Origin: Microbispora hainanensis
Lineage (GTDB): Bacteria > Actinomycetota > Actinomycetes > Streptosporangiales > Streptosporangiaceae
Assembly (NCBI RefSeq): GCF_036186745.1
Contig: NZ_CP108086.1
Location: 7,688,001 to 7,752,000, forward strand
DNA length: 64,000 nucleotides
Direction of reading: 5' to 3'
Made by a program: the position numbers and the translations under genes. Within the stretch, counting starts at the first letter, position 1. The number at the start of each line of letters is the position of its first letter. The notes under the pieces were generated by a model that saw only the letters and a list, made by a program, of their open reading frames with translations, searched no databases and was not told where the DNA came from. Below are positions 23,275-62,000 of the stretch, piece by piece.

Positions 23275-23460
23275 ATGCCGACGTTGACCCAGCCCGCCGG
23301 GGCCGACCTGCTCCCGGGCAAGCGATCCTGCCTCCTGGCGCCGGCGCCCGAGCGGGCGGACCACCCGGGAGCGGCGCCGCCGGACCCGCTTCCGGGGACC
23401 GGCGAGGCGCCGGCTTCGGGTGGCTCCGCCGATCCCGCTCCCGATGGGGCGCGCCGATGA
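23275..23460 (+). CDS. Small ORF coupled to crtI
   Basis: 61 codons starting at an ATG 8 nt after GAGGAG, one of the better ribosome sites in the window. Its TGA overlaps the crtI ATG (ATGA at 23457-23460). The product (MPTLTQPAGADLLPGKRS, then Pro/Ala/Gly-rich) has no domain I recognise and no membrane helix. It could be a real small protein or a leader peptide that sets crtI translation. It is the first ORF of the plus-strand carotenoid operon. Confidence 0.5.
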   Translation: MPTLTQPAGADLLPGKRSCLLAPAPERADHPGAAPPDPLPGTGEAPASGGSADPAPDGARR

Positions 23461-25891: not shown

Positions 25892-25892
25892 C

Positions 25893-26990: not shown

Positions 26991-27030
26991 CCTCCTGCGC
27001 TCACGAGCTTGTCCCGGCCTGCGGGATCGC

Positions 27031-28342: not shown

Positions 28343-29585
28343 CGGCGTCGGCGCGGCCCAGGCCGTACGCGCGGCTCCGCCAGGTCCTGACCGGCCGCAG
28401 CGTCGCCTGCGTGAGCCGTACGGCGGTGGCCGGATCGAGCAGGAACGACAGCAGCACGCCCGCGCCGGGCCGGGCGTAGCTGCGCCGCAGCGCGGTGGCG
28501 AGCAGCAACCGTACGGCGAGCAGCGCCAGGTCGAGCCGGGTCGGCCGCCCGGCGGCCAGGCGGAGCGCGGGCAGCGCGGCGGCGAGCCAGACGACGGCGA
28601 GATCGGCCGCCTGCCAGGCGGGGCGGGTGACGTCGCGCAGCGGCAGCGAGCGCCCCCACTCCCGCCACGCCTCGGCCGCCGACTCGTGCATGTCCACCTC
28701 CAGCAAGCCGCCCGCGTCGAGGAAGCCGACCCTCCAGCCGTCGGCGGCCAGGGCCCGTGCGAGGGCGACGTCGTCGGTCATGTGGCCGCGCACGCGGGCG
28801 AAGCCGTCGGCCCGCCGCATCGCCTCACGCCGGAAGGCCAGGCACTGGCCGTTCGCGACCACCCGGTGGGGCGGCGGCGGGACCGGCGGCCCGATCGGGC
28901 CGAACCGGTAGACCAGCGTGGCGAGGAACGACGCGTGCAACGCCTGCTCGGCGAGGCCGTCGCAGACGAAGCGCGGGCCCGCGCTGACCAGGTCGTGCTC
29001 CGCGAGTGCGGCGGCGAGCGCGCCGAACAGGCCGGGCCGGGGCCGGGTGTCGGCGTCCAGGGTGACCACGATCTCGCCGTGTGCCTCCTCCAGCCCCTGG
29101 TGCAGCGCCCACTGCTTGCCCACCCAGCCCTCCGGCAGCGGGCGTCCGCGCACCACCGTCGCCCCGTACGCGGCGGCGAGCCGGGCGGTGCCGTCCGAGG
29201 ACTCGTCGTCCACCACGATCACCTCGGTGACGGCGGGATCGGCCAGGACCGCCCGCAGGCAGGGGCCGAGCCGCCGCTCCTCGTCCCTGGCCGGGATGAC
29301 CACCGAGATCCCCGGACTTCCGGCACCCGGTTTTCCGCCGCCTGATGTCGTGCCCCCGCCGATCCACGCCGCCCGGCCGGCGACACCGCCCGGGGGCGCG
29401 TCACCGGGGAATTCCCCGGGCGCGGGCGCGGTGAGCGGAGGGAGGCGCCGGCGACCACGCGCGAGCCGCGCCAGCACGACGACGGCCGCGACGGCCTGGG
29501 CCACGGCGAGCACGCGCGCGGCGGCCCCGGCCCGTGGCCGCCGCGGAGCGGGTTTTCCGGTCGTCGTGGTCGCCTCGGCCTTCAC
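28293..29585 (-). CDS. Family 2 glycosyltransferase, CrtQ/CruC-like
   Basis: 430 residues. An N-terminal helix is followed by a GT2 domain from about residue 92 (ISVVIPARDEERRLGPCL; DDESSDGT; DXD-like TLDADTRP; LPEGWVGKQWALHQG, seen in carotenoid glycosyltransferases) and C-terminal membrane helices. Expected to glycosylate a hydroxylated or carboxylated carotenoid at the membrane. The GTG start overlaps the stop of the upstream desaturase gene (GTGA), so the two are coupled; last gene of the cruF-crtI2-GT operon. Confidence 0.85.
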   Translation of the reverse strand: MKAEATTTTGKPAPRRPRAGAAARVLAVAQAVAAVVVLARLARGRRRLPPLTAPAPGEFPGDAPPGGVAGRAAWIGGGTTSGGGKPGAGSPGISVVIPARDEERRLGPCLRAVLADPAVTEVIVVDDESSDGTARLAAAYGATVVRGRPLPEGWVGKQWALHQGLEEAHGEIVVTLDADTRPRPGLFGALAAALAEHDLVSAGPRFVCDGLAEQALHASFLATLVYRFGPIGPPVPPPPHRVVANGQCLAFRREAMRRADGFARVRGHMTDDVALARALAADGWRVGFLDAGGLLEVDMHESAAEAWREWGRSLPLRDVTRPAWQAADLAVVWLAAALPALRLAAGRPTRLDLALLAVRLLLATALRRSYARPGAGVLLSFLLDPATAVRLTQATLRPVRTWRSRAYGLGRADAVTCGARPGPPDRTAAR

Positions 29586-31126
29586 CGGGCTGCCTTACCC
29601 GGGTGCCGGGCGGAACGGGGGAAGTCGCCGCGCACCAAGGCGGCCACGATCCGCCCGCCCATGGCCACCAGGGGCAGCCCGCCTCCCGGATGCACGGACC
29701 CGCCGACGAGGTAGAGCCCGCGCCGTGGCCCCCGGTTGCCGGGGCGGCGGAACGGGGCGAACGGCCCGCCGTACGCGCCCCCGTAGATCGCCCCGCCCCA
29801 CGCGCCGTACCGGTCCCGCAGGTCGGCCGGGGTCAGCAGGTCGAGGAAGCGCAGCCGTCCGGACAGGTCGTGCCCCCGGCTCGCCAGCCGTTCGAGCACC
29901 AGCTCCGCGTACGCCTCGGGCGGCCTAGGCCAGCGCGCGGGGTCGCCGGCCGGGACGTTCACCAGCATGCTCCAGCTCTCCGCGCCGGGGGGAGCCTGGG
30001 TGTCGTCCGTCACCGCTGGGCAGCCGATGTAGACCGTGGGATCCTCCGGCGGACGCCGCCGCTCGAAGATGTCGCCGAACTCGCGCCGATAGTCGGCGGA
30101 GAACACCACCGAATGATGCGGCAGGCCCTCGGTCCGCCCCTCCACGGCGGCGAGCATCAGGAAGGCGGACGACGACAGGCCCAGCCGGGCGATGCGGCGC
30201 AGCCGGGTGCGGTCGGGCAGGAGCCGCCCGTACAGGGCGGCCGCGTCGGCGTTGACGATCACGATGTCGGCCCTGACCACCTCGCCGGGAGCCGTACGGA
30301 CGCCGACGACCCGCTCCGCGTCGGCGAGGATCTCGGTGATCTCGGTCTCCAGCCGGACCTCGACGCCCGCCTTGTCGAGCGAGGCGGCCAGCGCCTCGGC
30401 GAGGCGGGGCAGCCCGCCCCGCACGTACCATCCGCCGTCACCGTGCTCGATGGCGGGGACGCAGCCCAGGGCGGCGGGCGCACGGTAGGGGTTCGAGCCG
30501 GCGTAGGTGGCGTAGCGGCCGGCGTACTGGCGCAGACGGGGGTCCCGGAAGAAGCGGCACGCGAGACCGTGCAGGGTGCGGCCCGGCGCGACCGCGAGCA
30601 GGTCGCCCGGCCGGGGGCGTGGGAGGGGTCTGCCCGGCCGCCCACCGGCAGGGCCGCCCGACGGGCCGCCCGACGGGCGACCGCCCGGCCGGAACGGCGG
30701 CTCTACGACGGGCCCGGACAGCGGGCCCGCGAAGAAGGTGCGCGTGGAGGCGTCCAGGCAGCGCTCGGCCCAGCGGTGGAAGGCCCGCCAGCCCCGGCCC
30801 TCGCCGGGCGCGAGCCGGTCCACCGCCTCCGCCGTACGCCCCGGGTCGCGGTAGGTGGACAGGGTCGAGCCGTCCGCGAAGCGATACCGGCACAGCTCGT
30901 CGAGTTCGAGCAGGTCGAGCGGCACGCCGAGGTCGAGGAAGAGGCCGGGCAGCGTGAGGAGCGAGGGGCCGATCGAGAACGTGAAGCCGTCTCGCCTGTG
31001 CTCGGCCAGCTTGCCGCCGAGCCGGGGCAGCCGCTCGTGGATCCGCACGTCGTGCCCGTCCCGCGCGAGCAGCAGAGCGGCCACCATGCCGCCGACGCCG
31101 CCCCCGACCACGATCACCTCCGCCAT
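29582..31126 (-). CDS. Second CrtI-type carotenoid desaturase/oxidoreductase (CrtD-like candidate)
   Basis: 514 residues. FAD motif VVGGGVGGMVAALLLA, conserved GPSLLTLPGLFLDLG, and the C-terminal LYLVGGSVHPGGGLPLVAMGG, which is the CrtI/CrtD signature. A Gly/Pro/Arg-rich insert lies at about 145-175. With a CruF hydratase next to it, a CrtD-like 3,4-desaturase role is likely but not proven. Start ATG at 31124-31126, inside the 3' end of cruF (13-nt overlap). Confidence 0.87.
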   Translation of the reverse strand: MAEVIVVGGGVGGMVAALLLARDGHDVRIHERLPRLGGKLAEHRRDGFTFSIGPSLLTLPGLFLDLGVPLDLLELDELCRYRFADGSTLSTYRDPGRTAEAVDRLAPGEGRGWRAFHRWAERCLDASTRTFFAGPLSGPVVEPPFRPGGRPSGGPSGGPAGGRPGRPLPRPRPGDLLAVAPGRTLHGLACRFFRDPRLRQYAGRYATYAGSNPYRAPAALGCVPAIEHGDGGWYVRGGLPRLAEALAASLDKAGVEVRLETEITEILADAERVVGVRTAPGEVVRADIVIVNADAAALYGRLLPDRTRLRRIARLGLSSSAFLMLAAVEGRTEGLPHHSVVFSADYRREFGDIFERRRPPEDPTVYIGCPAVTDDTQAPPGAESWSMLVNVPAGDPARWPRPPEAYAELVLERLASRGHDLSGRLRFLDLLTPADLRDRYGAWGGAIYGGAYGGPFAPFRRPGNRGPRRGLYLVGGSVHPGGGLPLVAMGGRIVAALVRGDFPRSARHPGKAAR

Positions 31127-32142
31127 GCGCACCCCCAGGCGAGCAGGGCGAAGGCGCCCATCGCGAGCCCTCCGGCGGCGGCCACGAACGGATCGGGCGG
31201 CCGGAAGACCACGGCGAAGCCGACGGTCTCCATCAGCGCCATGACCGTGTAGAGCGCGACGAGCCCGGTCGTCCCCGCCGCCTCGGCGCCGGTCACGGGC
31301 CGGTCGGCGGCGGGACGGCCGGTGATGCGGTCGAGCAGCGCCATGACCAGGAAGGAGACCAGCAGCCAGCCGGCGAAGTTGGTGAGCGGGACCCCGCGGT
31401 AGGGTCCCGGCTCCGCCCAGACCCACAGCCCGAGCCCGAGCATCTGCGGGTCGAGGAACAGGTCCCACGCGGTGAGCGCCAGGGCTCCGGCGAGGATCGG
31501 CGCCATCCGGCCGCGCGGCGCCACGCGGCGGGCGACGGCGTGTGCGGCCAGACCCATGCCGCCCCAGGCGATGGCGACGATCAGCGGGACGCCGCCCGGC
31601 CGCGGCCACAGAACGTCGGTGTAGCGGTAGTCGCCGAAGGGCAGGCCCGTCCTGGTGCCGATCCATTCGGCGGCATAACCGGCCGCCACCGCCGCCGTGA
31701 ACGCGCCCGCCGCCCTGCGCGGGGTGTACGCCGCCGCCGCGAAGGCGAGCGCGCCCACCGCGAGCAGCACCACGACCGCGGTGGTGAGGCGCGGGTCCTG
31801 GGGCCGCAGTCCCGTCGCGATCTGGGCGGCCACCATCGCGGCCAGCGCGACCACGCCGGCCGCGTTCGGCCACGCGCCCGCCGGGCGGGGCGTCCGCGGC
31901 GCTTCCGGCTCGGACGACATCCCGGAGGACGCTCCGGACGACGGCCCTGGTGATGGGCCGGGTGACGGGCCGGGTGACGGGCCGGGTGATGGGCCGGGTG
32001 ACGGGCCGGAGGGCGCTCCGGGGAGTTCCGGCCCGCTCGACGAACGCCGGGGCGGCCGGGCTCCGCGCCGTTCGGGTGGCGTGCCATCAGCCTTGGCCGC
32101 GCTCTTCGCCGCGTTCTTCCGTGCGGCCTCCCACGTCTCCAC
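31114..32142 (-). CDS. cruF: CruF-type carotenoid hydratase (DUF422)
   Basis: 342 residues. The first 85 are hydrophilic with five PSPG repeats; the rest is a polytopic DUF422 domain, with GTRTGLPFGDYRYTD, AWDLFLDPQMLGLGLWVW and GVPLTNFAGWLLVSF. CruF proteins add water across the psi-end 1,2 double bond, giving the tertiary OH used for glycosylation. First gene of the minus-strand carotenoid operon. The repeat DNA (31949-32008) consists of five 12-bp units. Confidence 0.88.
   Translation of the reverse strand: METWEAARKNAAKSAAKADGTPPERRGARPPRRSSSGPELPGAPSGPSPGPSPGPSPGPSPGPSPGPSSGASSGMSSEPEAPRTPRPAGAWPNAAGVVALAAMVAAQIATGLRPQDPRLTTAVVVLLAVGALAFAAAAYTPRRAAGAFTAAVAAGYAAEWIGTRTGLPFGDYRYTDVLWPRPGGVPLIVAIAWGGMGLAAHAVARRVAPRGRMAPILAGALALTAWDLFLDPQMLGLGLWVWAEPGPYRGVPLTNFAGWLLVSFLVMALLDRITGRPAADRPVTGAEAAGTTGLVALYTVMALMETVGFAVVFRPPDPFVAAAGGLAMGAFALLAWGCAWRR
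31949..32008. repeat. Five 12-bp tandem units in cruF
   Basis: Unit GGTGAYGGGCCG repeats five times with only C/T differences and encodes PSPG repeats in the N-terminal extension of CruF. Confidence 0.9.
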
Positions 32143-45147: not shown

Positions 45148-45345
45148 ATGCGTGTCAGCGTCGACACCAGCCGATGTTGCGGAGCGGGGACGTGTGTCCT
45201 CATCGCGCCCGGCGTCTTCGACCAGACCGACGACGAGGGCACGGTCGTCCTGATGGACCCGTGCCCTCCGCGGAAGTTGTGGAACGACGTGCGGGAGGCG
45301 GCGGTCGCGTGTCCCCGCAGCGCCATCGACGTCGACGACGAATGA
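45148..45345 (+). CDS. 3Fe-4S ferredoxin
   Basis: 65 residues with the 3Fe-4S ligand set C-x5-C...CP (Cys10, Cys16, Cys55) typical of P450-partner ferredoxins in actinomycetes. ATG at 45148 after GAGGAAG. It follows the P450 gene and is ended by a hairpin that overlaps its stop codon, so the two form a bicistronic unit. Confidence 0.93.
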   Translation: MRVSVDTSRCCGAGTCVLIAPGVFDQTDDEGTVVLMDPCPPRKLWNDVREAAVACPRSAIDVDDE

Positions 45346-45531: not shown

Positions 45532-46206
45532 ATGCGTCGGGCATCCGGCTCTTTACAGGTTGGCGAGCGGCTTCGCGCCCTCTGTTGTACCGCTTCCGAT
45601 CACACATCTGTCGTCAGACTCAACCGCAACGAGCATTTATACGTATGCGGTGAACAGGCGAGTCATCTCTACATCATCATCAGCGGCCGGCTGAAGACGG
45701 TCAGCGTCTCGCGCTCGGGCAAGGAGTGCCTACTGGGCATCCACACCTACGGCGACCTGCTGGGCGAGTCCTGCCTGCTGGGCGGCAGGCGGGGCGAGAC
45801 GGTGACCGCGATGACCCCGGCCACCCTGCGCAAGATCCCCCGGGCGAACTTCCTGTCCGCGCTGGCGGACGACGGTCTACTCGAGGACTTCCTGTGCTAC
45901 CTGGCCCATCGCCTGACCGAGCAGCAGCAGGTGATCACGAGCCTGGTCACGGCGGACAGCGAGGAGCGCCTCGCGCACACCCTGCTGCGCCTGGCCCGCA
46001 AACTGGGCACGCCCAAGGCCGGGAAGCTCTGCATCCACGACAAGATCACGCAGGAGGAGCTGTCCGGCATGGTCGGCACCACCCGCTCCCGGGTGGGCTA
46101 TTTCCTCAAGCGCTTCCGCGACAGCGGGCTGATCGAGAGCCGGCCGGACGCCTTCCTGGCGGTGGACGAGGAACGGCTGGGCGACTACATGGAAGCGATT
46201 TCCTGA
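45532..46206 (+). CDS. Crp/Fnr-family regulator (LnmO-like position)
   Basis: 224 residues: N-terminal cyclic-nucleotide-binding-type beta roll (about 20-125; VCGEQASHLYIIISGRLKTVS, GDLLGESCLLGGRRGET) and a C-terminal winged helix (about 150-220; ITQEELSGMVGTTRSRVGYFLKRF). No Cys cluster for an FNR iron-sulfur centre is evident. Leinamycin's cluster is activated by a Crp-family protein, LnmO, and this gene is in the comparable position next to the beta-branching cassette. ATG 45532 follows GGGGGG. Confidence 0.88.
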   Translation: MRRASGSLQVGERLRALCCTASDHTSVVRLNRNEHLYVCGEQASHLYIIISGRLKTVSVSRSGKECLLGIHTYGDLLGESCLLGGRRGETVTAMTPATLRKIPRANFLSALADDGLLEDFLCYLAHRLTEQQQVITSLVTADSEERLAHTLLRLARKLGTPKAGKLCIHDKITQEELSGMVGTTRSRVGYFLKRFRDSGLIESRPDAFLAVDEERLGDYMEAIS

Positions 46207-46361: not shown

Positions 46362-47594
46362 TCATGCGGGCGCGCGGAATACCACGCTGCCGTTGAATCC
46401 GCCGAAGCCGAAGCCGTTCGAGAGGGCGACCCCGATATCGGCGCGGACCCCGCCGGTGGCCGGCGCGAACCGGAGACCCGGGTCGGCGGGGTGCGCGAGC
46501 CCCGGGTTGGGGTGAACGAACCCGCCCCGCATCTGCACGACGGTCGCCACCGCCTCGACCACCCCCGCCGCCGCCAGGCAGTGGCCGGTAAGGGCCTTGG
46601 TGGAGTTCACCCAGGCCCCGCCCACCGCCTCGCCGAGCACCCACCGCAGCGCCTCCGCCTCCGCCGCGTCCCCCAGCGGGGCTCCGGTGCCGTGCGCGTT
46701 CACGTACGACACGTCGCCGGGCGAGACGCCGGCCCGGCTCATCGCCCGGGTCATCGTGGCCGCCTCGGCCTCGCCGTCGGGCTCGGTGAGGCTGTTCGCG
46801 GCCAGGCGCAGGTCCCATCCGGCCAGCTCGGCGAGCACCTCGGCGCCCCGCGCCCGCGCGGACCGCCGCGACTCCAGCACCACGCACGCGGCGCCCTGGC
46901 CGTAGGCGAAGCCGCCGTGCGTCTCGTCGAAGGGCGGTCCCACCGGACCCGGGGCCATCGCGCCGACGTTGAGCAGGGCCCGCTCCTCGATGGCGGACAG
47001 GTCGGCGAGGGCGCCGACGACGAGGCACACGTCGGCCTCTCCTGTGGCGACGAGGCGGGCGCCGTGCACGAGGCCGGCGTTGCCGCTCGCCGAGGCCGCG
47101 CCCACGGTGCAGCCCTCCCCCCTGATCTGGAGCAGCTGGCTGATCGTGCCGACGTGATCGGTGTCGAGGAGCCGCAGGGCCGCACGCGGGGGCAGGTGGG
47201 CGGGCCGGTTCGCGTACCGGTCGTGCAGGTCCGTCAGGTGCCGACCGGTCAGGTTACTCCCGGCGACCACGAGCCCCACGCGGTCGCCCGGCACGGCCGC
47301 GATGTGCAGGCCCGCCCCGATCCAGGCCTCGGCGGCCACGCCGACGGCGGCGCGCAGCGGCAGCGGGGCCCGCCGGGTGAGCCGTTCGGCGGAGCGCCGC
47401 AGGGCGTCGGGCGCGCCCGCGGGCAGGACGGGCAACGCCTCGCGGACCTCCTCGTCCAGCAGGGCGGCCGGAGGGCCTCCGTCAGGGCACGAGCACACGC
47501 CCCGCCGTCCCTCCCGCAGCGCCCGCTCGAACGCGCCGGCGTCGCCCGCGATCGCACAGACCACGCCGACGCCCGTGACGGTCACCGTGTGCAT
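46362..47594 (-). CDS. Ser-type ketosynthase, predicted malonyl-ACP decarboxylase of a beta-branching cassette
   Basis: 410 residues with a full ketosynthase fold, but the active-site Cys is replaced by Ser (GAASASGN, Ser168), while both catalytic His remain (NAHGTG; TGHCLAAAG). KS homologues of this type in trans-AT beta-branching cassettes decarboxylate malonyl-ACP to acetyl-ACP. ATG 47592-47594 with GGAGG upstream. It follows the donor ACP gene by 27 nt and is the last gene of the minus-strand PKS operon seen here. It is not a type II chain-length factor: no KS-alpha partner is present. Confidence 0.85.
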   Translation of the reverse strand: MHTVTVTGVGVVCAIAGDAGAFERALREGRRGVCSCPDGGPPAALLDEEVREALPVLPAGAPDALRRSAERLTRRAPLPLRAAVGVAAEAWIGAGLHIAAVPGDRVGLVVAGSNLTGRHLTDLHDRYANRPAHLPPRAALRLLDTDHVGTISQLLQIRGEGCTVGAASASGNAGLVHGARLVATGEADVCLVVGALADLSAIEERALLNVGAMAPGPVGPPFDETHGGFAYGQGAACVVLESRRSARARGAEVLAELAGWDLRLAANSLTEPDGEAEAATMTRAMSRAGVSPGDVSYVNAHGTGAPLGDAAEAEALRWVLGEAVGGAWVNSTKALTGHCLAAAGVVEAVATVVQMRGGFVHPNPGLAHPADPGLRFAPATGGVRADIGVALSNGFGFGGFNGSVVFRAPA

Positions 47595-47621: not shown

Positions 47622-47861
47622 TCAGGCATGCGTGCGCAGCAGTTCGACGAGCTCCCCGACCGGCGCGCCCTGACGGAACTCCGACAGCGGCACCTCGATC
47701 GCGAGCTCCTCCATCACCGCGGTGACGATGTCGGCCCGGTCCACGCTGTTGCAGCCGAGGTCGGCCAGGCTGCGGTCGGGCGTGATCTCAGCCGGGTCGA
47801 TCTCCGGGACCACCGCCACCGTCTGCCGCCGGATCGATTCGAGGATCGCGACATCGTCCAT
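47622..47861 (-). CDS. Donor acyl carrier protein of the beta-branching cassette
   Basis: 79 residues with phosphopantetheine Ser39 in LGCNSVDRADI; the N-S-V-D-R pattern is characteristic of ACPs that present the acetyl or propionyl donor to HMG-CoA-synthase-like enzymes. Start ATG at 47859-47861 with GAGGGG upstream, 17 nt after the HCS stop. It is the counterpart of LnmL in leinamycin biosynthesis. Confidence 0.9.
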   Translation of the reverse strand: MDDVAILESIRRQTVAVVPEIDPAEITPDRSLADLGCNSVDRADIVTAVMEELAIEVPLSEFRQGAPVGELVELLRTHA

Positions 47862-47878: not shown

Positions 47879-49120
47879 TCAGATCCACTCGTACCGGCGG
47901 TGGTGGTCCTCCACCGCGCGCAGGGCCAGCATCGGGCGCCGGTCGGCGCACCGGTCCAGAAGGTGCTCGTAGGCGGCCACGTCCACCTTCCGGTCGCGCT
48001 CCGGCACCAGGCAGCGCATGTTCTCCGGCAGCACCTCCAGATATTCGGCGAAGGTCAGCTCGGCCCTGGCCGACAGCCGGCCGGCGATGTCCATGGCCGC
48101 GACCTCCTCGGCCGACCTCTGGTCGGCCACACCGCTGAAGAACTCCGACGAGCAGCCCGAGCCGTAGGAGAACAGGCCGACACGCAGCGGCGCGGCGGGC
48201 CGTGCGGTGTCGAGCGCGGCGGCCAGGGCGAGGTAGAGCGAGCCGGAGAAGAGGTTGCCGACCTCTCCGGGATAGGTCAGCGACGGGCCCACCCGCCGCT
48301 CGAAGTCCGCCTCGATCTCGGCCGGGGTCGCCGCGGTGAACTCGCGCAGCAGCTTGCGATGCCCGGCCTTGACCATCCCCGCGAACGGCGTGTGCAGCGC
48401 CAGCAGGTCGAACGTCGTCATCAGGTCGACGTCCTCGACCCGCGCGCGGTAGTCGGCGAAGCTCTCCCGCAGGCACTCCAGGTAGGCAAGCAGCGACCGG
48501 TCCACGTCCGCGATGTCGTACGCCGGGGAGGGCCGGGCGGTGTCGAGCGTCTCGAAGCTGTAGAGGCCGAAGGCCCCGGGGTCGAGGGCGAGCACCCGCG
48601 GGTCGTCGCCGACCAGCATGGCGACCGCGCCGCTGCCGGTGGCCGGCTCGGCGTACTCCGCCCGTTCGTCGGCCAGCGCGACGTCGGTGGCGATCACCAG
48701 CGCGCGGGCGCCCGGCGAGACGTCCGACGCGACATAGGAGGCGGCCAGGCGCAGCGCTGCCGTCGCCGAGTAACACGCCTGCTTGACTTCCAGCAGCCGG
48801 CAGTGCCGGCCGAGGCCGAGGTGCTCGTGCACGTACGACGCGACCGACTTGCTGTAGTCGACCCCTGACTCGGTGGCCGTGATGAGGAACTCGACGCTGT
48901 CGCGTTCCTCCTCGCCGAGCCGCTCCAGCAGGGGTGCGGCGGCGTTGACCGCGTTGGTCACCGGGTCCTCGAACGGCAGCGCCACCGCGCGGCGCGCCAT
49001 CATGAGGTTGCCGAACCTGCCGGTGTCGAGCCCCCGCCCGGCGAACAGCTCGGCGACCGGCACGCACGCCACGCCGCCGTACACGTTGAGGGACTCGATG
49101 CCGGTGAGCCGGTCTGTCAT
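47879..49120 (-). CDS. HMG-CoA synthase-like enzyme of the beta-branching cassette
   Basis: 413 residues. Catalytic Glu84 (ATESGVDYS), Cys116 (EVKQACYSAT) and His243 (LALHTPF) are present. It condenses acetyl-ACP (or propionyl-ACP) with a beta-keto group on the PKS, starting beta-methyl/alkyl branching. Counterpart of LnmM. The ATG overlaps the PKS stop codon (ATGA at 49117-49120), so it is translationally coupled to the PKS. Enoyl-CoA hydratase genes needed to finish the branch are not in the window. Confidence 0.93.
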   Translation of the reverse strand: MTDRLTGIESLNVYGGVACVPVAELFAGRGLDTGRFGNLMMARRAVALPFEDPVTNAVNAAAPLLERLGEEERDSVEFLITATESGVDYSKSVASYVHEHLGLGRHCRLLEVKQACYSATAALRLAASYVASDVSPGARALVIATDVALADERAEYAEPATGSGAVAMLVGDDPRVLALDPGAFGLYSFETLDTARPSPAYDIADVDRSLLAYLECLRESFADYRARVEDVDLMTTFDLLALHTPFAGMVKAGHRKLLREFTAATPAEIEADFERRVGPSLTYPGEVGNLFSGSLYLALAAALDTARPAAPLRVGLFSYGSGCSSEFFSGVADQRSAEEVAAMDIAGRLSARAELTFAEYLEVLPENMRCLVPERDRKVDVAAYEHLLDRCADRRPMLALRAVEDHHRRYEWI

Positions 49121-50067
49121 CGTCGGCCCTGCCCTTCCTTGATCGACGCGGTCCGCCCGGCGGCGCCGGGGCGCTCGTCACCGGCTCCGAGGCGGAGGAA
49201 GCCGGCCAGTGCGTGGTTCACCTCTTCCGGGTGTGTGACGCAGGGGAAGTGGCCCGCGTCGGGGATCTCGACGTACCGCGCGTCGGGGATGAGGCCGTGC
49301 AGCAGATGCGCGGTCTTGAGCGGGATGACCGAGTCGTGGCGGCCCTGGACGATCAGCGTGGGCACCGAGATACCCGGCAGCCGGCCGAGCAGGTCGGGCT
49401 CGGCCGCGAAGACGTCGAGGTAGCGCAGGCCGATCCGCGGGTCCATGCTCTCGCAGCGCAGCAGCGCCGCCTCCAGGTCGTCCCGCTGCTCGCGGATCCG
49501 GGCCGACCCCGATCCGGCGACGATGTGGTCGAGGTCCTCGGCCACCACGCGTTCCAGCCGGTTCACGGCGCCGGCACGGTTGGCGTACTTGTACGACCCG
49601 CAGATGATCGACAGGGACGCGGTGGCCTCGGGATGCCGCAACGCGAAGTTCTGCGCCAGCAGGCTGCCGAACGACGCGCCGGCGACGTGGACCGGGAACT
49701 CCACCCCGAGGCGGCGCAGGACGTCGAAGTGCAGGGCGGTGATGCCGTCGAGGCTGATGTCGCCGTCCGCGGTGGTCGCGCCGACCCCGGGGTGGTGGAT
49801 CACCACGACCCGGCACCGCCCGGCCAGGTCGCGGAACTGCCGGGCGAACACCCCCGCGCCCATGTTGAACGGATGCATCAGCAGCAGCGTCGGGCCCTCG
49901 CCCGCGCTGAGCACCTCGACCTGCCCCCCAACGTACGCCACGAGCGTGCGCCGGACACCGGGAGCGGCCTCCCGCACCGCCGCCCAGTTCTGGTCGGCCG
50001 GGCGGTAGCCCTCGCGCAGCACGTCCTGGATGTCGGACGGCACCTCCCCGGCGGGACGGTAGGCGGC
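49117..50067 (-). other. Thioesterase domain of the PKS
   Basis: Alpha/beta-hydrolase domain (about 4640-4935) with nucleophile GASFGS (Ser4771), Asp4884 in GRHDSVIP and His4912 in DAGHFPCV. It releases the finished chain, probably by macrolactamisation or hydrolysis, and follows the lyase domain directly. Confidence 0.9.
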
Positions 50068-53000
50068 GCGGGCGGCGTCGAGGGCCGTGACCGGCTCCTC
50101 GGCCGTCACCAGGCACGGCACCTCGGCGGCGGAGCCGAACAGCCCGGTCAGCCGCTCGGCGACGAGATCGATCTCGGCCTTGCCGTAGCCCAGGGGGACG
50201 GCGAGCCGGACCAGCCGGTCGCCCGCGAGGTGCGGCCCGCCGCGCACACCGGTCTCGCGGAACATCCAGGCGAGGAACGACGGCACCGGATGGGGCAGAC
50301 CGGCGAGGTGGTCCATGCGGGACAGGTCGAGCAGCAGGCAGTGCCCGCCGGGGGGCCCACCGGTGGGGCCGGCGAGCGGCACGCCCGCGGCGTCGAGACT
50401 CCGCCACAGGGTCCGCACGCCGCGCATCCGCTGACGCACCAGCTTCAGCACGCCCTCGCAGTCGGCGAGGGCCAGCGACAGCGCGCGGCGGTCGAGCAGG
50501 TTGAGACCGGGCCCGCGCAGCTCGGCCTCCTCCCGCAGCCGCGCCGCCACCTCGGGCAGGCGGGTCGCCACCAGGCCGCCCGCGTGGACCCCGAAGTCCT
50601 TGGTGGCGCTCATCGTCACGACGTCCGCCAGGGAGAGCAGGTCGCGTACCACGTCCCACACTCCGCGGCCCTGGTGTCCCGGCTCATGCTCGGCCACGAA
50701 GACGGCGTTCTCCACCACGCGGGTCGCGTCGACGACCACCGGCACACCCTGCGCCGCGGCACGCTCCCGCACCTGACGGAGATTGGCGGCCGACACCGGT
50801 GCGCCGCCCCCGGCGTTGCCGGTCAGCTCGACGGCGACGAAGGCGATCTCCCCGGCCTCCAGCGCCCTGTCCAGGGCGGCGAGGTCCAGGTCGCCGCCGA
50901 AATGACCGCTGGAGACGGACGGCAACGGGACGGGGTCGAAGCCGTTGTCGGCCAGGTTGAACAGCAGGGTCGGGAAGAGCCCGTTGTGCGGCACGGCGCC
51001 GCGCCGTCCCGGCCACGACCGGCACAGCAGCGCCTCGGCGGCCCGGCCGGACGGCGCCGCGACGACCGTTTCGAACGGCAGCCAGGGCGGGGTGAGCTCG
51101 TCGCCCGCGCCCGGCTCGGCGGCCCGGCGGATCAGCTCCTCGGCTCGCCGCGCCACCACCTCGTCCGTACGCTCGGCCCACGAGTCGGTGACCAGGTCGA
51201 ACTCGACGGCCTCCGGCGGCAGCCGCAGCGGGTTGTGCCCGTGAGCCGCCAGCAGCGCCTCCCGCTCCTCAGCCGTGACCGCCGGACCGGCGTCGCCTCT
51301 TCTGGAGGGGCCGGACGAGACGGCGACAGCGGCGGGCGCGCTCACGGCGGCGCGACCGTCGGAAGCGGGGCCGTCGTCGGAGGCGGTGGGGCGGTCGGGG
51401 GCGGCGGGTGCCGTGATGCCGGTGGGCGCGGACGGGTCCGCGATCATCAAGATGACGTCGGCGACCGGGGTCCGCGGCCCGTCGGCGGGCTGGCAGAGGT
51501 AGAGGGGCACGTTCACGGGCCGGAACTTGTTCTTGAACTGGAAGTTGCCGGCGCCGAAGATGCCCGCGCCGCGCAGCTCCTCCAGGCCCTGTTCGACCTC
51601 GGGCGCGGCGTTCGGCGAGTCGCACACCTTGGCCCCGAAACTCGCGCCGAAGCTGAACAGCGTGCACCCCTCCGCCACGAGGACGCCGATGATCTGCACG
51701 ATCGCGTACTCCAGACCGCCCAGCGGGCCGTCGGCGGGATAGAACTCCACGTCGAGCAGGTAGCCGTTCTCAGACGGGATGCGGGTCACGACCACCGCGT
51801 TCGCGAGAGCGTCGTCCAGGTAGGTCAGGAAGACCCGGTGCCGCTCGTCCAGCAGGCCCTCGCGGATCTCCTCCCGGACCCTGCGGACGTACGGGTTGGT
51901 CATCTGCTTGCCGCCGGCCCAGCGGTCCACCAGCTCGGCCAGCCGGCGGTCCGTCGCCGGGTCGGAACCCGAGCGATACTCCACGGTGCGGCAGGAGCCG
52001 CTGCGTTCGAACCGCTGGACCATGTAGCGCAACCGGCTCATCCGGCCGCCCTTCAGCGTGAACCGAGACAGGTCCTCCAGGCGCTGCACCGCACCGAACG
52101 GCGTGGCGGTCAGGCGGTGGCCTCCCGCCTCCTCCAGCCGCCGCAGCGACAGGAAGCTGGCCCTGAGGCCGCGGCCTCGCGCGTAGTCCAGGTATTCGGC
52201 CGCGAGCTCGGTGAAGTGCTCCTCCGAGCCGACGTAGCTCCAGGAGAAGAGGTCGTCGTCCCGCTGCGAGAACGTGAAGAACCCCTGGCGGGACGAGCCC
52301 AGGAACAGCAACGGCGCGATGTCCCGGCCCGCGAGCCCGGTCTCCTTGGCGTAGCGCCGCTCCAGGTCGGCCACCACCTCCCGCAGGCCGGGCCGCCCGG
52401 CGACGGCGGCCCGCGGGACGATCAGCGGCGCGCCCTTCTCCTCGGCCGATGATTCGACGGCTCGTGACGCGCTGCTTCCGGTGGCGCCGTCGGGGATGCC
52501 GGGGCCGACGCGGCTGGGGGCGCCGTCACCGGACGCGCCCAGCGAGGCGACGGCGGCGGCCCCGAAGGTGTCCCGCAGCCAGCGGGTCAGCTCGGCGAGC
52601 GTTGGCCGGTCGAACAGCAGCGACTTGCGCAGGCCACCGAGCCGCTTCTCCAGCGCGCTGATCACGCGCAGCATGTCGAACGACGTGAGCGCGTTGTGCT
52701 CGAAGCTCCGCGTCGGGTCCAGCGGCCGCCGGATGACGCTCTCGACCAGGTCGCGCACCGCCCGCTCGGCGGCCTCCCGGCCGTCGCCGTGCTCCGCGTC
52801 GTCCCCGCGCATCGCAAACGCGTGGTTCCCGTTCATCTCAGAGGTGCGGTTCCCGCTCAAGGCACCGCCCGCCGGGGCACCGGCCGCCGGAGCATGGCCG
52901 TTCGGCGTGTGGCTGCCGCGGGCGTCGCCGTCGTGAGTGGGCCGACCGCCGGACGGCGCGGTCAGCGACGTGATGTGCGCGGCGAGCGCGTCGACGCTGT

Positions 53001-56000
53001 CGTGCTCGTACATGTCTTCGGCCTTGAGTTCCAGGCCGTACGCCGCGCCGAGCTTGCGGGCGAGGTCCATCCGGAAGATCGAGTCTAGACCCAGCTCCGC
53101 GAAGGGCCGGTCGCCCTCGATCTCCTCGGCCGGCATGGCGAGGATGCGCGCCAGGTGTTCTCTGATGCTCCGCGTCACCGGCGCCGCCGCCTCGGCCGTC
53201 ACCCGCACGAAGGCCGGGGCGGCCACCGGCCGCGGAGTGAGCTCCGGGGGGGCATGCAGGGCGGCGGGCTCGCTCGACGCGGTCCGGCCGCCGTCCGCGG
53301 GTGCCGCCACGCCTCGTGCCGCGGGCTCGGGACGTTCCCTGGGCTCGCCGGGCCAGGCGGGGTCCTCCTGTCCTCGCGCGGCGTCCGGCGGGGCGAGCCG
53401 CACCCGGGCCCGGCGGGCCGGCCGGGGTCCCATGCTGTGCCGCACGTGCTGGTTCGGCTTCTGCACCGTAACCTCCGTGATGACCTCCGGGACGGGACGG
53501 GACTCCTCTCGGGTGAACCAGAACCTCGTCCGGCTGAACGGGAAGCTCGGCATCGGCAGCCTGCGGGGCGGCCGGGCACCGCGGCCCGCCCGCCGGGCCC
53601 TGTGCGCGGCCCAGTCGACGCGCGCCCCGGCGACCCAGGCACGGGCCAGCGCGTGCAGGTCCTCCTCGTCACAGGGGCCGGCGTTCCGCGCGGCGGTGCC
53701 GAGGTGGATGACGCCGTGGTGGCCGGGCGTCGTGTCACCCGTCGCCCTGTCACCTCTCGCCGCCGTGTCGCCCTCCGCAGCGGCGCGCAGCGCCGACACG
53801 AGCTCCTCGTGGCTCGCCGCCACCACGGCGAGCCGTTCGCGCAGCTCCTCCCGGCCGGCCTGCAGCGTGTACGCGACGCGCGACAGCTCCAGGCCGGGCC
53901 GCTCGGCGAGGAAGCCCGCGAGCCGGGTCGCGTACGCGCGGAGCGCCCCGCGGGTCGGCGCGGACAGCACGAACAGCTCGGGTCCGGCGTGCGAAGACTC
54001 CACCGTCTCCTCCTCGCGGGTCACCGCCCGCTCCAGCACCACGTGGGCGTTCGATCCGCCGAAGCCGAACGAGCTCACGCCCGCGCGCCGGATCGGCCGC
54101 CCGTCGGGCCCGGGGGTCACGGGCCACGACAGGGCGGCGTCGACCAGGTGGAACGGCGTTCCGTCGAGCCGCAGGTAGGGGTTGACCTCTCGCCGGTGGA
54201 GGGTCGCGGGCAGTTCCCCGTGCTCCATCGCCAGCAGGACCTTGAGGACCCCGGCGATGCCGGCCGCCGCCTCCAGGTGGCCGATGTTCGTCTTGACCGA
54301 GCCGATGCCGATGTGGGGGGTCCGCGGCATCGGGCGGCCCCACTCCTCGTACAAGCGGCTGAACGCCTTCTTCAGGCCCTCGATCTCGATGGGATCGCCC
54401 AGGCGGGTTCCCGTCCCGTGCGCCTCGATGTAGGTGACCGTGGCCGGGTCGGCGCCCGCCTCGCGGTGCGCCCGGACGAGCACGTCGGCCTGCGCCTCCG
54501 GGTTGGGCGCGGTGAGCGACGCCGACCTGCCGCAGTGGTTGACGGCGGTGCCCCGCACCACCGCGTACACGTGGTCGCCCTCGGCGAGCGCCCGGTCGAG
54601 CGGCTTGAGCATCACGACGCCGACGCCCTCGCCGCGGACGTAGCCGTCGGCCGCCGCGTCGAACGTCTTGCATCGTCCGTCCGGGCTGAGCATGCCCGAC
54701 TGGGTGAAGGCGACGAACACGTCCGGGTTGAGCAGCACGTTCACGCCTCCGGCGAGGGCCGTCTCGCACTCCCCCGCCTGGATCGCGCGGACCGCGCGGT
54801 GGATGGCCACCAGGGCGCTGGAGCAGGCGGTGTCCACCGCCTCGCTCGGGCCGCGCAGGTCCAGCAGGTGCGAGACCCGGTTGGCCAGCACCGCGTGCGC
54901 GACACCGGTCGCCATGTGAGCCTGGACCGGCACGCCGTGCCGGGTGAGCAGGGCGTCGTAGTCGGAGGTCGCGACCCCGGCGAACAGCCCGGTCGCGGTG
55001 CCGGCCAACTCCGAGGGCCGGTGCCCGGCGTCCTCGATCGCCCGCCACGCCGCCTGCAGGAACAGCCGCTGCTGGGGGTCCATCAGCGCCGCCTCCGCGG
55101 GTGAGATGCCGAACAGCCCGGCGTCGAACGCCGCGACGTCGTCCAGGAAGCCGCCCTGCAGGTGCCGCGTCCGATCGTCCGCACGAAGGTCGGCACGGTC
55201 GTCGGGCACCGGGCCCACGAGGTCGTCGCCGCGCATCAGGTGGCGCCAGAACTCGGTCAGGTCGGACGACCCGGGAAGCATCCCGGCCATGCCGACCACC
55301 GCCACCTCGACCGGCCCGCGCGCACCATGCGGTTCTCGTACGCCGCCGTCCCCGTCGCCCGCGTCGCCGCCCCTGGCCGCACCCGGTTCCGCGGCTACGG
55401 TGACCGGCTCGTCTGCGGCCGGCCTGTCCGTCCCCTCGTCGGCGGGCCGCTCCCGGTTTCCGTGCCGGGCGGCGAGCTCGGCCCGGTGGTGGGCGTCGAG
55501 GTAGGCGGCGAAGCCGGTCAGCGTGGGGCACTCGAACAGAACGGTGGGCAGGAGTTCGAGCGAGTAGCGCTCGTTGACCTCGTTGATCAGTTCGGTGAGC
55601 GAGACCGAGTCGAAGCCCAGCTCCATCAGGTCGGCGTCCGGGTCGACCTCCGACTGGTCCACCAGCAGGAAGCGGGCGGCCACCGCGCGCAGGTCGCGCT
55701 CCACGTGCGCCGCATACCCCTCGGCGTGCTGCCCGCCGCCTTCCTCCGAGGCGTGCGCGGGCGCCCCGCCGGAGGCCGCGCCGGAAGCCTCGTACGCCAC
55801 GCGTGACGGCATGGCCGCGTCCCGAGCGCCGGGACCGCCGGTGGACTCGGCGACCGCCGGCTGGAAGACGACGAAGCTCGGCTCGTCCCCCGCGAGCGCC
55901 CGGCGGAACGCCTCCAGGCCCGCGGGGGTGCTCAGCGGCGCGATGCCCCAGTGACGGGCCATCAGGCGTTCCGTGGCCTCGTCCACGGCCATGCCGCCCT

Positions 56001-59000
56001 CTCGCCACAGCGGGTAGCCGATCGCGACCGTACGGCCCGCGCGCCGCCCGGCCTGCCGCTCCTGCTCCCGCTCGCGGGCGAACGCGTCGAGGAAGCCGTT
56101 CGCGTATGCGTAGTCCGCCTGGCCGAGGTTGCCCATCTCGGCCGTGGCCGAGGAGAACAGCACGAAGAAGTCGAGCGGGTCGTCCCTCGTCAGCGCGTCG
56201 AGGTGGAGCGCCCCGTCGATCTTGGGAGCCAGCACTTCGGCCACCTCGCCGGGCGTCTTGAGCACGGCCCGGGCATCGCGTGTGACGCCCGCCGCGTGGA
56301 CGACGCCGTGGAGCGCGCCGAACTCCTCACGCACCCGCTGGAGCAGGCGCTCGGCGTCGGACCGTACGGCGATGTCGGCGGCCAGGTAGCGCACCCGCAC
56401 GCCCTCGCGATCGAGGGCCTCGACACGGGCACGGCGCGTCTCGTCGAGCGGGGAGCGCCCGGTCAGGACCAGGTTGACCGGACCGTGCCCGGCCAGGAAC
56501 TCGGCGACGAGCAGCCCGAGGGCACCGGCTCCCCCGGTGATCAGGTAGGTGCCGCCGGGGCGCAGCGGGAGACCGGCGACGTCGGCGGGCGTGAAGTCGT
56601 CGAGTCCGCGGACGTGGCGTCCCGCACTGTCGTACCGCACTTCGGTGACGCCGCCGGACTCGGCGCAGAGCTCCTCCGCCAGGAGGGCGGCGAGCCGCTC
56701 GCCGGATGTGCCGGGATCGACCTCCACCCGGGCGGCCGTGAAGCGGCTGTGCTCCAGGGCGAGAGTCCGCAAGGTCCCGGCCACGGCGGCGTACGCCGGG
56801 CGGATCAGCCCTGTGCCGTCCCCGTGCGCCACAACGGCGCGCAGCGGTGCCCCGCCGTTACGCCCGAGGATCGAGACGGCGGTCCAGAACGGCGCGTGGA
56901 ACCCCTCCCGCACGTCGGCCGACGCGTCGCGAGCCCCGGCGGCCGGTACGCGCAGGAACGCGTCCGGCAGCAGGCCGCGACCGGCGAGGTCGTCCATCAC
57001 CCGCCGGCAGTGGTCCGGGTGGCCGGGGATCAGCGTGTAAGTCCCGTCGTCGCGTCGTCCGTAGTCCGCTCCGGCGACCACGGACACACAGGTCACGCCG
57101 CGTCCCGCAAGCTCGCTCCCGACGGCCAGGCGCAGCGGCTCGTCCGCGAGGTCGAGCAGGGCCACGCGGGGCGGGCGGCCCTGGCGCGGCGGACCGGCCG
57201 GACGCCAGACCGGACGCAGATAACGGCACTCACCGGCCCCTGCATCGCCTTGGGTGGCCGTCGCGACAGCGGTGGCGGCGGCGACACTCGCCCGGGCGGC
57301 GTCGATGGAGCCGGCGCTCTGCCACCCGCCGCCGTCGGAGCCGCCGATCGGGGCGCTGGTCGAGGCGCCGATCGGGGCGCTGGTCGGGGCGCTGGTCGAG
57401 GCGCTGGTCGAGGCGCTGGTCGGGGCGCTGATCCGGCCGGTGCCCGCGGGGGCGGGCTGCGTGACCGGGGCGACGGTCAGGCCGTCCACAGCGAGCAGGA
57501 CGGCGCCGTCGTCGTCGACGAGCCGCAGGTCGAACCGGCGGCGTCCCCGAACGTCCCGGGCCTTCTCCACGACGTGGACCCAGCACGCGGACGGCAGGGG
57601 GACCAGGAACAGGGCCTGGTCGAGCCCGACGGGGACGTAACCCGCCGATCCTTCGACCAGCGCGGCGGCCGCCTGGAAGGCGCCGTCCAGGAGGGCGGCC
57701 TGGCGCGCGAGGCCGCCGTCGTCCCCGTCCCCGCCCGTCTCCTCCGCCGAAGGCTCCCCTGCAGAGGAGCCATACGCGGCTTGCGCGGCCTGAACGCCGC
57801 GGGCCGCCACCGGGTCCGGCTCGGCGGACAGAGCGGACACCGCCGACATGGCGAGCGCAGTGGGTGCTACAGAAAGGGCGGGCACGATCGGCACTGTGGG
57901 TGCGGTGGACGTAGTGGATACGGCGAGCGCGGTGAGGCGGGCCAGGCACTCGCCGTCGCCTACACGCAGGGCGGAGACGACGCGGAGCCCGGGCCCGTAG
58001 TCGAGACCCGCCCGGCCGAGCTCGCGGTAGAAGCCCGCGACGTCGATCTCCCGGCCGCACCGGGACCTGATCGCGTCGAGTTCGAGCACCTGCGCGCGGT
58101 CGCGACGAGCCGCCTGCGGTCCGGTCACGCCGTCAGCCGCCGGGGCCGCGGCAGCGAGCCGGGCCAGCAGGCCCTCGGTGTACGCGGCGCCGTCCCGGCC
58201 GGGTCCGAGCACCCGGAACCGCCGGGCGTCTTCCTCCTGGATGAAATGGACCGAGACCTCGCGGATGCCGGATTCGAGGTTGATTGGGTGGTGCCAGCGC
58301 ACGTCGCGCAGGGCCACGGCGGCGCCGGACAGGCCGGAGGCCGAGCGGACCAGTCCGAGGACCGCCGCACCCGGCAGCCAGCGCACCCCGCCAACGCGGT
58401 GATCCGTCAGGTGCGGCTCACCGCCGTCCAGCCGCAGAAGCGCCGTCTCCCCGGAGCCGGGCCAGCCCGCGTCCGGCGGCACGGACGTCATCGAGCCGCC
58501 GAGGGACGCGGCGCGCGCGTCCCCGGCACCCGCACGGGTGGGACCTGTCGCAGGTGTCGCGCCGGTCGTGTCGGGCGCGCCGGTCGTGTCGGGCGCACCG
58601 GTGTTGACGGGCAGCACCGGGCCGTCCAGGTCCAGCCAATAGCGGCGGCGCTGGAAGGGATAGGTGGGGAACGACGCCCGCAGAGGCACGGGAGCGGACC
58701 ACAGCACGGGCCAGTCCACCGGCGCCCCGGCCACCCACACGCGGGCGAGCTTGGGAAGGCTGCGCCTGGCCAGGAGCGTGGCCACGAACTCTGCGCCCTC
58801 GTCGTCGTCCAGCAGGAGCAGGGTGCCGGCCCCCTCCGCCCTGCCGGTGACGACGTCGGGATGCGGCTCGCCCGAGACGTACGCGCGCAGGCGCTCCGCG
58901 AGGCCCCGCCGGTCGGTCGCCAGCACCGCGAGGCGCTCCGTCATCTCCTGGCGGCCGACCTGGCTGGTGTAGGCCAGCTCGCGCAGTGTGGCGTCGCATG

Positions 59001-62000
59001 CCGCGTCGTCGTCCACGAAGTCCGCGACCCGCGCCGCGTACGCGCGCAGCCGCTCGGCGTTGCGGGCCGACAGCAGGAAGAGCTGCCGATCTCCGTCGTC
59101 GGCCAGCCGAGGCCGGCTCTCTGTATGTTCCTCCACGATGACGTGCGCGTTCGCGCCGCCCGCGCCGAACGAGCTCACCCCGGCCCGTCGGGGAACGGCC
59201 CGCGGCCCGCCGCCGAGGTCGACCACCGGCCGCGCCCACTCCCTCGCCCCGGACGACGGAAGGAACGGCGACCCCGCGAAATCGATCTTCGGGCTGAGGG
59301 TCTCGAGGTGGACGCAGGGCGCGATCGTGCCGTGGCGCATCTGGAGCAGCACCTTCGTCAGCCCGGCCACGCCCGCCGCGGCCTCCAGATGACCGATGTT
59401 CGCCTTGACCGAGCCGATCGCGCACCGGCCCGTGCCGTGGTCCCCCGCCGCGCCGAACGCCCGGGTGAGGCCGGAGACCTCGATGGGGTCGCCCAGCTCG
59501 GTGCCGGTGCCGTGGGCCTCGACGTAGCTGATCGTCCGGGGATCGACCCTGGCGCGGCGCAGCGCCTCCGACACCAGCTCCGCCTGCGCGTTGGGGTTGG
59601 GGACGGTGAATCCCGCGGTCTTTCCCCCCGCGTTGACGGCGCTGCCGCGGATCACGCCCCAGATCCGGTCGCCGTCGGCCAGGGCTCGGTCGAGCGGCTT
59701 CAGCAGTACGGCGCCGACGCCCTCGCCGGGCACGTATCCATCGGCGCGGGCGTCGAAGACCTTGCACGCGCCGTCGGCCGACAGCATGTTCATCGCGCAC
59801 AGGGACACGTGGTGGTTGGGGTGCAGGATGAGGTTCACGCCGCCCGCGATCGCCATGCGGCACTCGCCCCGCCGGATGCTCTCCACCGCCAGGTGCACGG
59901 CGGTCAGCGAGGAGGAGCAGGCCGAGTCGACCGCGAAGCTGGGCCCGGACAGGTCGAAGAAGTACGAGACCCGATTGGCCACCGACCAGTAGGCGGAGTG
60001 CGCCCCTGACAGGCGCCCCCGCGGCCACTGGGTGGCCCCCAACTCGCCGTACGTGCCGTACATGATGCCGACGAACACGCCGGTGCGCGGTTCGCGGGTG
60101 TGCTCGCCCAGGTAGCCCGCGTCTTCGAGCAGGTTCCAGGTCGTTTCGAGGAACAGCCGTTCCTGCGGGTCGATGTTCACCGCGTCGCGCGGCAGTATGC
60201 CGAAGAACCCGGCGTCGAACTTGTCGACGCCCTCGATGAACCCGCCCCACCGGCTGTAGGTGCGCTGCGGCCGGCCGCGGCGCGGGTCGAAGTGCGGGCG
60301 CCAGTCCCAGCGGTCCGCGGGCACCTCGGTGACGCAGTCGTTGCCCTCGGCCAGGTTGCGCCAGAAGGCCGCGAGGTCGGGCGAGCCCGGGTAGCGTCCG
60401 CTCACCCCGATGATCGCCACATCGACCGGCCGTGCCCCGTCCGCGCCGCCGTCAGCATCGCCGTCACGGACAGCCGAGGGCGCGCGGGACGTGGCCGCGG
60501 AGAGCACGGACGCTCCGGAGGCCGCGGGCGCCCCGAAGGCATCCGGGAGGTCGGAGGAGCCGGGAGCCTCGGCGGACGTGGAGAGTGCGGGCCGATCGGA
60601 CTGCTCCGGCTGCTCCGGCTGCCCGGGCCACTCAGGATGCTCGAGAGCGATCACGCCGCTCAGCCGCTCCGCGTGCTCCCTGGCGAGGTATCGGGCCAGC
60701 TGCTCGATCGTGAGCTGCTCGAACAGCAGGGTCGACGGCAGCGGGCCGAGGTCGCGCTCGAACCGGTTGATGATGTTCAGGCTGATCAGCGAGTCGATGC
60801 CGAAGTTCTCGAACGTGGTGCGCTCGCCCAGGTCCGCCTCTCGGAACTTGAGCACCTCGGCGAAGACGCGCTTGACGTAGTCGCGGGCCTGCCGGTCGAG
60901 TCGCACGCCCACCGGCACCGGGACCTCACCCGTGCCACCGGTCACGGTCGCCGGGGCCGCCTCCGTGCCACCTGCCGCAGGCGCCACCCGGCCGTCGTCG
61001 GCGGCCGGCGACGGTGCTGCACCGTCGCCCTGCCGAGCGCCCGCGACCACCCGAGCCCCTGAGGTCTGCCGGTCTCCCCCGGAGCCAGGCGCGACACCCT
61101 CGATCCCGAACCCGGCCAGACCGGCGGGCCCGGCCTTCACGACGAGGGCCTGCGGCACCCCGGCGGCGACGATCCGCGTGAGCGCGGCCATGCCCTCTGC
61201 GGGCTCGATGGAGCCCACGTCGAGGTCGGCGAAGCGCCGACTGTGCCGATCGTCGGCACCCATGCCGACGGCCCCCCAGTAGCCCCAGTTCACGATCACG
61301 GCCGGGGCCGCCCCCGCCTCCCGCAGGTGCAGGCCGTACGCGTCCTCGAAGGTCCCCGCCGCCGCATAGGCCGCCTGCCCGGGGGTGTCCACGAACGTCG
61401 CGGCCGAGGAGAAGAGCACCAGGAAGCGGAGCGGCTCACCGCGCAGCGCCTCGTGCAGGGTGACCAGTCCCGTGGTCTTCGGCGCCAGCGCCGCGAGGAA
61501 GGTCTCCTCGTCGAGGTTGGCCAGGGTGCGGTCCCCCGGCACGGCGGCCGAGTGCACCGCGCCGTCGACGGGCCCGAACCGCTGCCGGACCCGCGCGACC
61601 GCGTCGCGCAGGGCGGCGGGATCGCAGACGTCCGCCCTCTCGTACACCGCCTCGCCGCCCAGGCTGGCGATCTCCGCCATGCGGCGCTCGATCTCCGCGT
61701 CGCGCTCGCGGCGGCCGATCCACGCCAGGCGGGCGCCGTGGGCACGGGCGAGGTGGCGGCTCAGCTCATAGCCGATGCCGCTCGCCCCGCCCACGACGAG
61801 GCACACCCCGCCCTCCGGGAACGGCAGGCCGGCGGCGGGAAGCCGGGCCGGTACGAGCGTGCGCGTCCAGCGGCGGTCTCCCCGGCGCACCACGATCGGC
61901 GTGCCCTCCGTTTCCGCCCGCACGGCACGCGCGGCCGCGCCGGGATCGGGCACGTCGCCCAGGTCGACGCAGGTGACGGTCCACCGCGGATACTCCGCGC

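Follow-up and report, generated by a model that had tools for sequence, protein, structure and literature searches.

A probable leinamycin-type terminal module with DUF, SH and thioesterase domains in Microbispora hainanensis

Module 8 of the leinamycin (LNM) assembly line has the order ketosynthase (KS), two acyl carrier proteins (ACPs), a domain of unknown function (DUF), an SH domain and a thioesterase (TE), and those DUF-SH modules outside the leinamycin type that are annotated in the same source have one ACP and no TE (PMC7618002). The SH domains of LnmJ, GnmT and WsmR, which depend on pyridoxal phosphate (PLP), are thiocysteine lyases yielding a hydropersulfide (-SSH); the three SH domains tested preferred a thiocysteine mimic 50- to 106-fold in catalytic efficiency, and cysteine adducts are cleaved in vitro by LnmJ-SH, inefficiently (PMC8479088). 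Deacetylated mycothiol persulfide has been considered as a donor and is excluded for SH by the assays published there. By April 2021 the same work counted 109 DUF-SH clusters, three non-leinamycin groups among them, so the family is not unexplored; the original prediction for the present locus had spoken of an unexplored sulfur-containing polyketide. Here we describe a module of this kind in a 64,000-nucleotide stretch of Microbispora hainanensis (the window, G000:C1:7688001-7752000) within a genome of 8.8 Mb on one contig. It is very probably the terminal module of a leinamycin-family assembly line that combines a nonribosomal peptide synthetase (NRPS) with a polyketide synthase (PKS) served by acyltransferases (ATs) in trans. 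The leinamycin-type, sulfur-installing ending proposed in that prediction finds support in the domains, in the SH clade and in the surrounding genes. Neither of the outcomes named there as refuting, a PLP domain clustering with ordinary tryptophanases or a longer contig devoid of other PKS, AT or tailoring genes, was observed.

On the minus strand, the open reading frame with its end at 49117 extends beyond the window. Its in-window part (49117-63999) comprises 4960 codons, and the rest reaches an ATG at extended 70431 (extended coordinates are genome positions minus 7688000), which gives an open frame of 7104 amino acids. Pfam and motif scans place its domains, from the N-terminus, as DH-ACP-KR / KS-ACP / KS-DH-KR-ACP / KS-DH-KR-ACP / KS-ACP-ACP-DUF-SH-TE, with DH for dehydratase and KR for ketoreductase. 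The last 1427 amino acids hold two PP-binding stretches together with Pfam matches to LPG_synthase_C (PF09924; 58.0 bits, cut-off 27.5), Beta_elim_lyase (PF01212; 90.5 bits, cut-off 27) and Abhydrolase_1 (65.5 bits, cut-off 25.8). Because these scores far exceed the curated cut-offs and 18 relatives share the order, the domain string is not a product of chance, and the predicted arrangement is borne out by the domain and motif positions. As the module carries two ACPs and a TE, the locus is assigned to the leinamycin type.

All parts of the module lie on the minus strand. The last KS occupies 54022-55311, with its active cysteine at codon 54823-54825. ACP1 (52963-53217) has its serine at codon 53080-53082 in a GLDS motif and would be the beta-branching acceptor by homology, a role taken from PMC7618002. 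In ACP2 (52561-52794; serine codon 52681-52683) ALTS stands in place of GxDS. The change of DS to TS was considered as a special mark of this ACP and dropped; TS also occurs in other carrier proteins of the cluster. Both ACPs lie just upstream of the span 49117-52422, which covers the DUF (51445-52410), with an invariant asparagine (51544-51546), lysine (51532-51534) and aspartate (51751-51753); the SH domain (50008-51270), read as a PLP-dependent (thio)cysteine lyase with lysine at 50599-50601, aspartate at 50728-50730 and arginine at 50206-50208; and the TE (49183-49944), with a GASFG motif and its serine at 49672-49674. Numbered from the ATG at 63984, Lys4462 and Asp4419, the PLP residues named in the original prediction, correspond exactly to the SH lysine and aspartate codons.

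The SH domain stands apart from ordinary lyases. In a phmmer search its first-ranked match was 9CEN, at 297 bits, and the best tyrosine phenol-lyase (TPL) reached 126 bits. 9CEN is a solved PKS domain whose entry is named only 'Polyketide Synthase Protein' and which is read here as an SH domain; we guess that it belongs to a thiocysteine-lyase structure paper in JACS in 2024. It is 48% identical to the window SH and has the same PLP residues. In a profile alignment, counted along the 7tcs row, the equivalents of TPL Asp214, Arg217, Lys257 and Arg404 are retained, with Asp4419 and Lys4462 of the window aligning with Asp214 and Lys257. The domain thus has the PLP lysine and aspartate and the arginine for the substrate carboxylate. 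Residues thought to bind that carboxylate are reported as conserved in PKS-embedded lyases, and in the domain modelled in that report TPL Tyr53 is replaced, while Arg381 is missing both there and in the leinamycin protein (PMC3870968). In a tree of 21 rows, the SH rows and three free-standing actinobacterial lyases fall on opposite sides of a branch with 100/100 support; 9CEN is its only SH row of known structure, and no row bears the name LnmJ, GnmT or WsmR. Support is weak (85/86) for a pairing of the window SH with L021, and 9CEN sits with Streptomyces SH rows on a different branch. For what had been called a tryptophanase-like domain, TPL rather than tryptophanase is the nearest ordinary enzyme by sequence. 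The published role of SH is now that of a thiocysteine lyase giving -SSH (PMC8479088).

A profile built from the window SH aligned to 9CEN, run once against genome contigs, gave 14 named loci in Streptomyces, Nonomuraea soli, Actinokineospora bangkokensis and two metagenome-assembled genomes. Four more loci (L034, L035, L036 and L037) came from a tblastn search of a plasmid collection; their hosts are three Streptomyces and one Kitasatospora, and the plasmids are linear. L035 and L037 belong to different strains and have almost the same SH row. The last KS, ACP1, ACP2, DUF and SH were matched in all 18 relatives, the SH incompletely in L030 and L032, and these two are omitted from the SH alignment and tree. 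TE and HMG-CoA-synthase-like protein (HMGS) were matched in 17 of the 18; the contig of L030 ends inside SH. In Streptomyces sp. SPB074 (L032:10013-10339) the partial SH match may reflect a frameshift, an assembly error or a broken copy. Identity between the window and the relatives found is 45-54% for SH and 55-66% for DUF. Across 396 sampled genomes of the phylum, a protein search at E 1e-40 matched four genomes, three of them to the lyase part only, and found DUF-SH in the source genome alone; the DUF profile likewise matched only that genome. Within the genus sample, one genome in 15 has DUF-SH. At E 1e-15, no free-standing relative of the DUF was seen in the other 395 phylum-sample genomes, with five candidates per genome scored in the rows shown.

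Across its whole length the DUF matches the tandem-GNAT fold of the MprF/FemABX superfamily, at about 18-24% identity to the MprF rows of a structural alignment. In an alignment of 19 DUF rows, L030 and L032 included, an N-x-x-F-K motif is invariant. The lysine of FK, kept in all 19, aligns with the active-site lysine of the MprF entries, and the equivalent of MprF Asp765 in these entries is also present. At the position of MprF Arg768, which we take to be an essential residue, all 19 rows have phenylalanine. With this arginine replaced, no flippase domain and a location inside a PKS, the DUF reads as something other than an MprF. The genome's own MprF-like protein (L044, G000:C1:3493641-3494567, in a 662-residue frame) has RFNAKF where the MprF entries have FK-x-K-F, which would mean that this protein either has a different chemistry or can do without the lysine. 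With FN at this place, the FK lysine cannot serve as a hallmark of the entire family. Two other modes of action are disfavoured for the DUF. Action through a cysteine persulfide of its own finds no invariant cysteine in the 19 rows. As for an acetyl-CoA GNAT, the listed acetyl-CoA tandem GNATs rank below MprF, Sba18/Sbb17 and FemX, and the shared fold leaves the cofactor undecided.

Given the domain string, the catalytic residues and the gene set observed here, a chemistry can be proposed in which every step is inferred from characterised relatives. The last KS would extend the chain on ACP1, where HMGS, a donor ACP, a decarboxylating ketosynthase (KS0) and an enoyl-CoA hydratase (ECH) would build a carboxylated beta-branch, making C-3 a Michael acceptor. 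The DUF would add L-thiocysteine at C-3, and the SH domain would use PLP to cleave the cysteinyl C-S bond, with -SSH staying on the chain. The chain would then move to ACP2 and be released by the TE, probably by cyclisation, and a P450 with its ferredoxin and a methyltransferase may tailor the product. By analogy with these relatives the product would carry sulfur as an S-S-H group. The cluster would then join the apparently intact sources of leinamycin-type products that bear a hydropersulfide. Several points weigh against this view. The seven ketosynthases in three PKS genes do not clearly follow the family's eight-module rule, the SH domain was compared with 9CEN and with loci known by strain rather than with LnmJ, GnmT and WsmR by name, and the addition of thiocysteine by the DUF has the status of a published proposal.

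It is very improbable that an ordinary tryptophanase or TPL was fused to the PKS by accident, or that the cluster has decayed and makes no product. The best NCBIfam names for the SH region are indeed tryptophanase and tyrosine phenol-lyase, but both score below their curated cut-offs (145.1 against 285 bits and 113.4 against 720.7 bits), and in the tree the free lyases stand apart from SH. The frame of 7104 codons is uninterrupted and retains the catalytic residues; an ordinary tryptophanase fused to a PKS is rejected on scores and tree. A further alternative, which we consider quite improbable, is that SH acts here as a plain cysteine lyase, so that the product would bear only -SH. The inefficient cleavage of cysteine adducts by LnmJ-SH speaks for it, whereas the 50- to 106-fold preference for the thiocysteine mimic (PMC8479088) and the position of the window SH inside the PKS SH clade speak against it.

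The sulfur donor of the DUF is the step that the 2021 work leaves open (PMC8479088), and the fold and motif evidence makes it a question that can be tested, with free thiocysteine and a charged tRNA as the two candidates. The favoured reading is that an aminoacyl-transferase fold of the MprF type here houses a site for free L-thiocysteine and uses no tRNA. Alternatively, the DUF could take cysteine or its persulfide (CysSSH) from charged tRNA-Cys, with the FK lysine holding the ester carbonyl, the (per)sulfide attacking C-3 and the tRNA being freed before SH acts. The MprF/Fem fold, the FK lysine and the N-x-x-F-K motif would fit such a route, VlmA offers a precedent (PMC2922099), and E. coli cysteinyl-tRNA synthetase (CysRS) is reported to make tRNA-bound CysSSH (PMC5660078). 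Yet a shared fold does not show function, and the carboxylate arginine retained by SH points to a substrate whose carboxylate is free; an ester-linked adduct would need an extra hydrolysis. Also against it, Arg768 of MprF is phenylalanine in all 19 DUF rows, and FN takes the place of FK in the MprF-like protein of this genome. Charge leans the same way: GNAT2 carries a net -4 to -10 in the 19 DUFs against +6, +2, -2 and -6 in four MprFs, and the whole DUF -2 to -12 against +6 in the last 330 residues of the genome's own MprF-like protein. A CysRS dedicated to the cluster was sought and rejected, none of the six PF01406 matches in the genome lying near it (the nearest is about 275 kb from its P450 end). 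Since FK is not forced by the family, the wider argument from FK becomes a little weaker, yet the DUF does retain this lysine; the tRNA route is considered unlikely. The fuller version, in which the DUF is a tRNA-reading domain within a PKS that accepts CysSSH-tRNA-Cys and hands the persulfide on to the chain held by the ACP, we regard as rather unlikely. If true, it would have the assembly line draw sulfur from the translation machinery and would account for the source of thiocysteine as well as for the fold and invariant motif of the DUF. Among the literature matches listed, no title or abstract opening ties the leinamycin DUF to MprF, DUF2156 or tRNA.

Five or six PF01406 matches are present in each of the 15 genomes sampled from the genus; the extra copies are genus-wide and hence have no tie to the cluster. 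L039 (G000:C1:330613-331482; 372 bits), a second strong CysRS-like gene, has a counterpart in each of the 15. PF01406 matches also occur in 14 of the 17 records behind 17 relatives (L030 excluded), with exact placement for the S. xanthii plasmid only. This linear plasmid (NZ_CP061282.1) bears cysS and another class I tRNA ligase (L047:27200-28597 and L047:34236-35771). Its cysS lies beyond the leinamycin-type cluster, about 31 kb from the last P450, and a type II PKS is among the genes in that interval; the arrangement is not taken as linkage.

The wider chromosome, checked for further cluster genes, holds PKS, NRPS, two AT genes, the HMGS cassette and a P450 with ferredoxin. Genes were called across 163 kb with a simple codon-usage script, and the Pfam scan of cluster genes covered 21 protein entries, leaving extended 76649-77582, 82129-83802 and 93727-94572 unscanned. 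Downstream of the TE, on the minus strand, are the HMGS of the beta-branch cassette (47879-49120), a free-standing donor ACP (47622-47861) and a free-standing ketosynthase (46362-47594) with GAASASG and no active cysteine, read as KS0. A KS0 match above 150 bits lies near HMGS in 12 of the 18 relatives, and the three annotated plasmid loci have an LnmK gene. On the plus strand follow a Crp-type helix-turn-helix regulator (45802-46206), whose cluster membership is assumed from position, a ferredoxin (45148-45345) found in the Pfam scan, and a cytochrome P450 (43879-45075), a likely tailoring enzyme; 12 of the 18 relatives have a match to it above 200 bits downstream of their TE. A single ECH was found among the scanned cluster genes; no ECH2 was seen among them, and no ECH domain in the PKS parts. 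As judged from these genes, a cassette lacking ECH2 would retain the beta-branch carboxylate.

Upstream, a free adenylation (A) domain and a free peptidyl carrier protein (PCP) are accompanied by proteins of the alpha/beta-hydrolase, methyltransferase and PIG-L deacetylase types, by an AT-PfaD gene between two DUF6039 proteins, by a second PKS and a second AT, and by the ECH and a gene for a thioesterase. An NRPS-KS protein, also upstream, combines condensation, A and PCP domains with an Ox domain of the nitroreductase type. The ATs are two separate genes and Acyl_transf_1 has no match in the PKS parts, as fits AT function in trans. An NRPS start is likewise present, with the free A and PCP followed by condensation/A/PCP/Ox. 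The A-domain motifs FDLSVF and FWNS look cysteine-like. The ketosynthase of the NRPS-KS protein (L012:12451-19680) has AAAGA where HGTGT is expected and is perhaps non-elongating. The two DUF6039 (PF19505) proteins (L011:14648-15571 and L011:17990-18889) flank AT-PfaD, and the S. xanthii cluster likewise has two. The PIG-L/BshB1-like deacetylase lies inside the cluster (L011:12730-13392, extended 75729-76391); of the four plasmid stretches, L034, L036 and L037 contain homologues (56%, 71% and 55% identity), and an mca gene is near the S. xanthii cluster. By analogy, the deacetylase could process mycothiol conjugates of the product. For the largimycins, an attack by mycothiol has been proposed (PMC13200230).

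Elsewhere in the window, a carotenoid-type gene stretch (23457-31920; GC up to 0.776) contains amine-oxidase/desaturase-like genes (23457-24965 and 29582-31126), a squalene/phytoene synthase (24962-25891), a glycosyltransferase (28293-29303) and a Caroten_synth protein (31114-31920).

Compared with known systems, the locus resembles module 8 of the leinamycin family (LnmJ, GnmT, WsmR and LrgJ) in its KS-ACP-ACP-DUF-SH-TE order, HMGS cassette, ATs in trans and NRPS start with an Ox-type module, a likeness of architecture in which the named proteins were not compared directly. It differs in that its cassette is of the KS0 type, as in weishanmycin (PMC7618002), and not of the LnmK type. 9CEN shares the PLP residues of the SH domain and differs in its place among Streptomyces rows of the tree. 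The DUF resembles MprF and LPG_synthase_C in fold over the whole domain, in the FK lysine and in the equivalent of Asp765; it differs in its low identity, its phenylalanine for Arg768, its lack of a flippase and its setting in a PKS. The tandem GNAT fold is also shared with Fem-type tRNA-dependent ligases (VlmA, DhpH-C, PacB and Sbb17/Sba18), and an N-x-x-F-K spacing like that of the DUF is reported for DhpH-C (PMC12945691). The reactions described for these ligases move an aminoacyl group to nitrogen or oxygen, whereas the DUF would act at a carbon of an ACP-bound chain.

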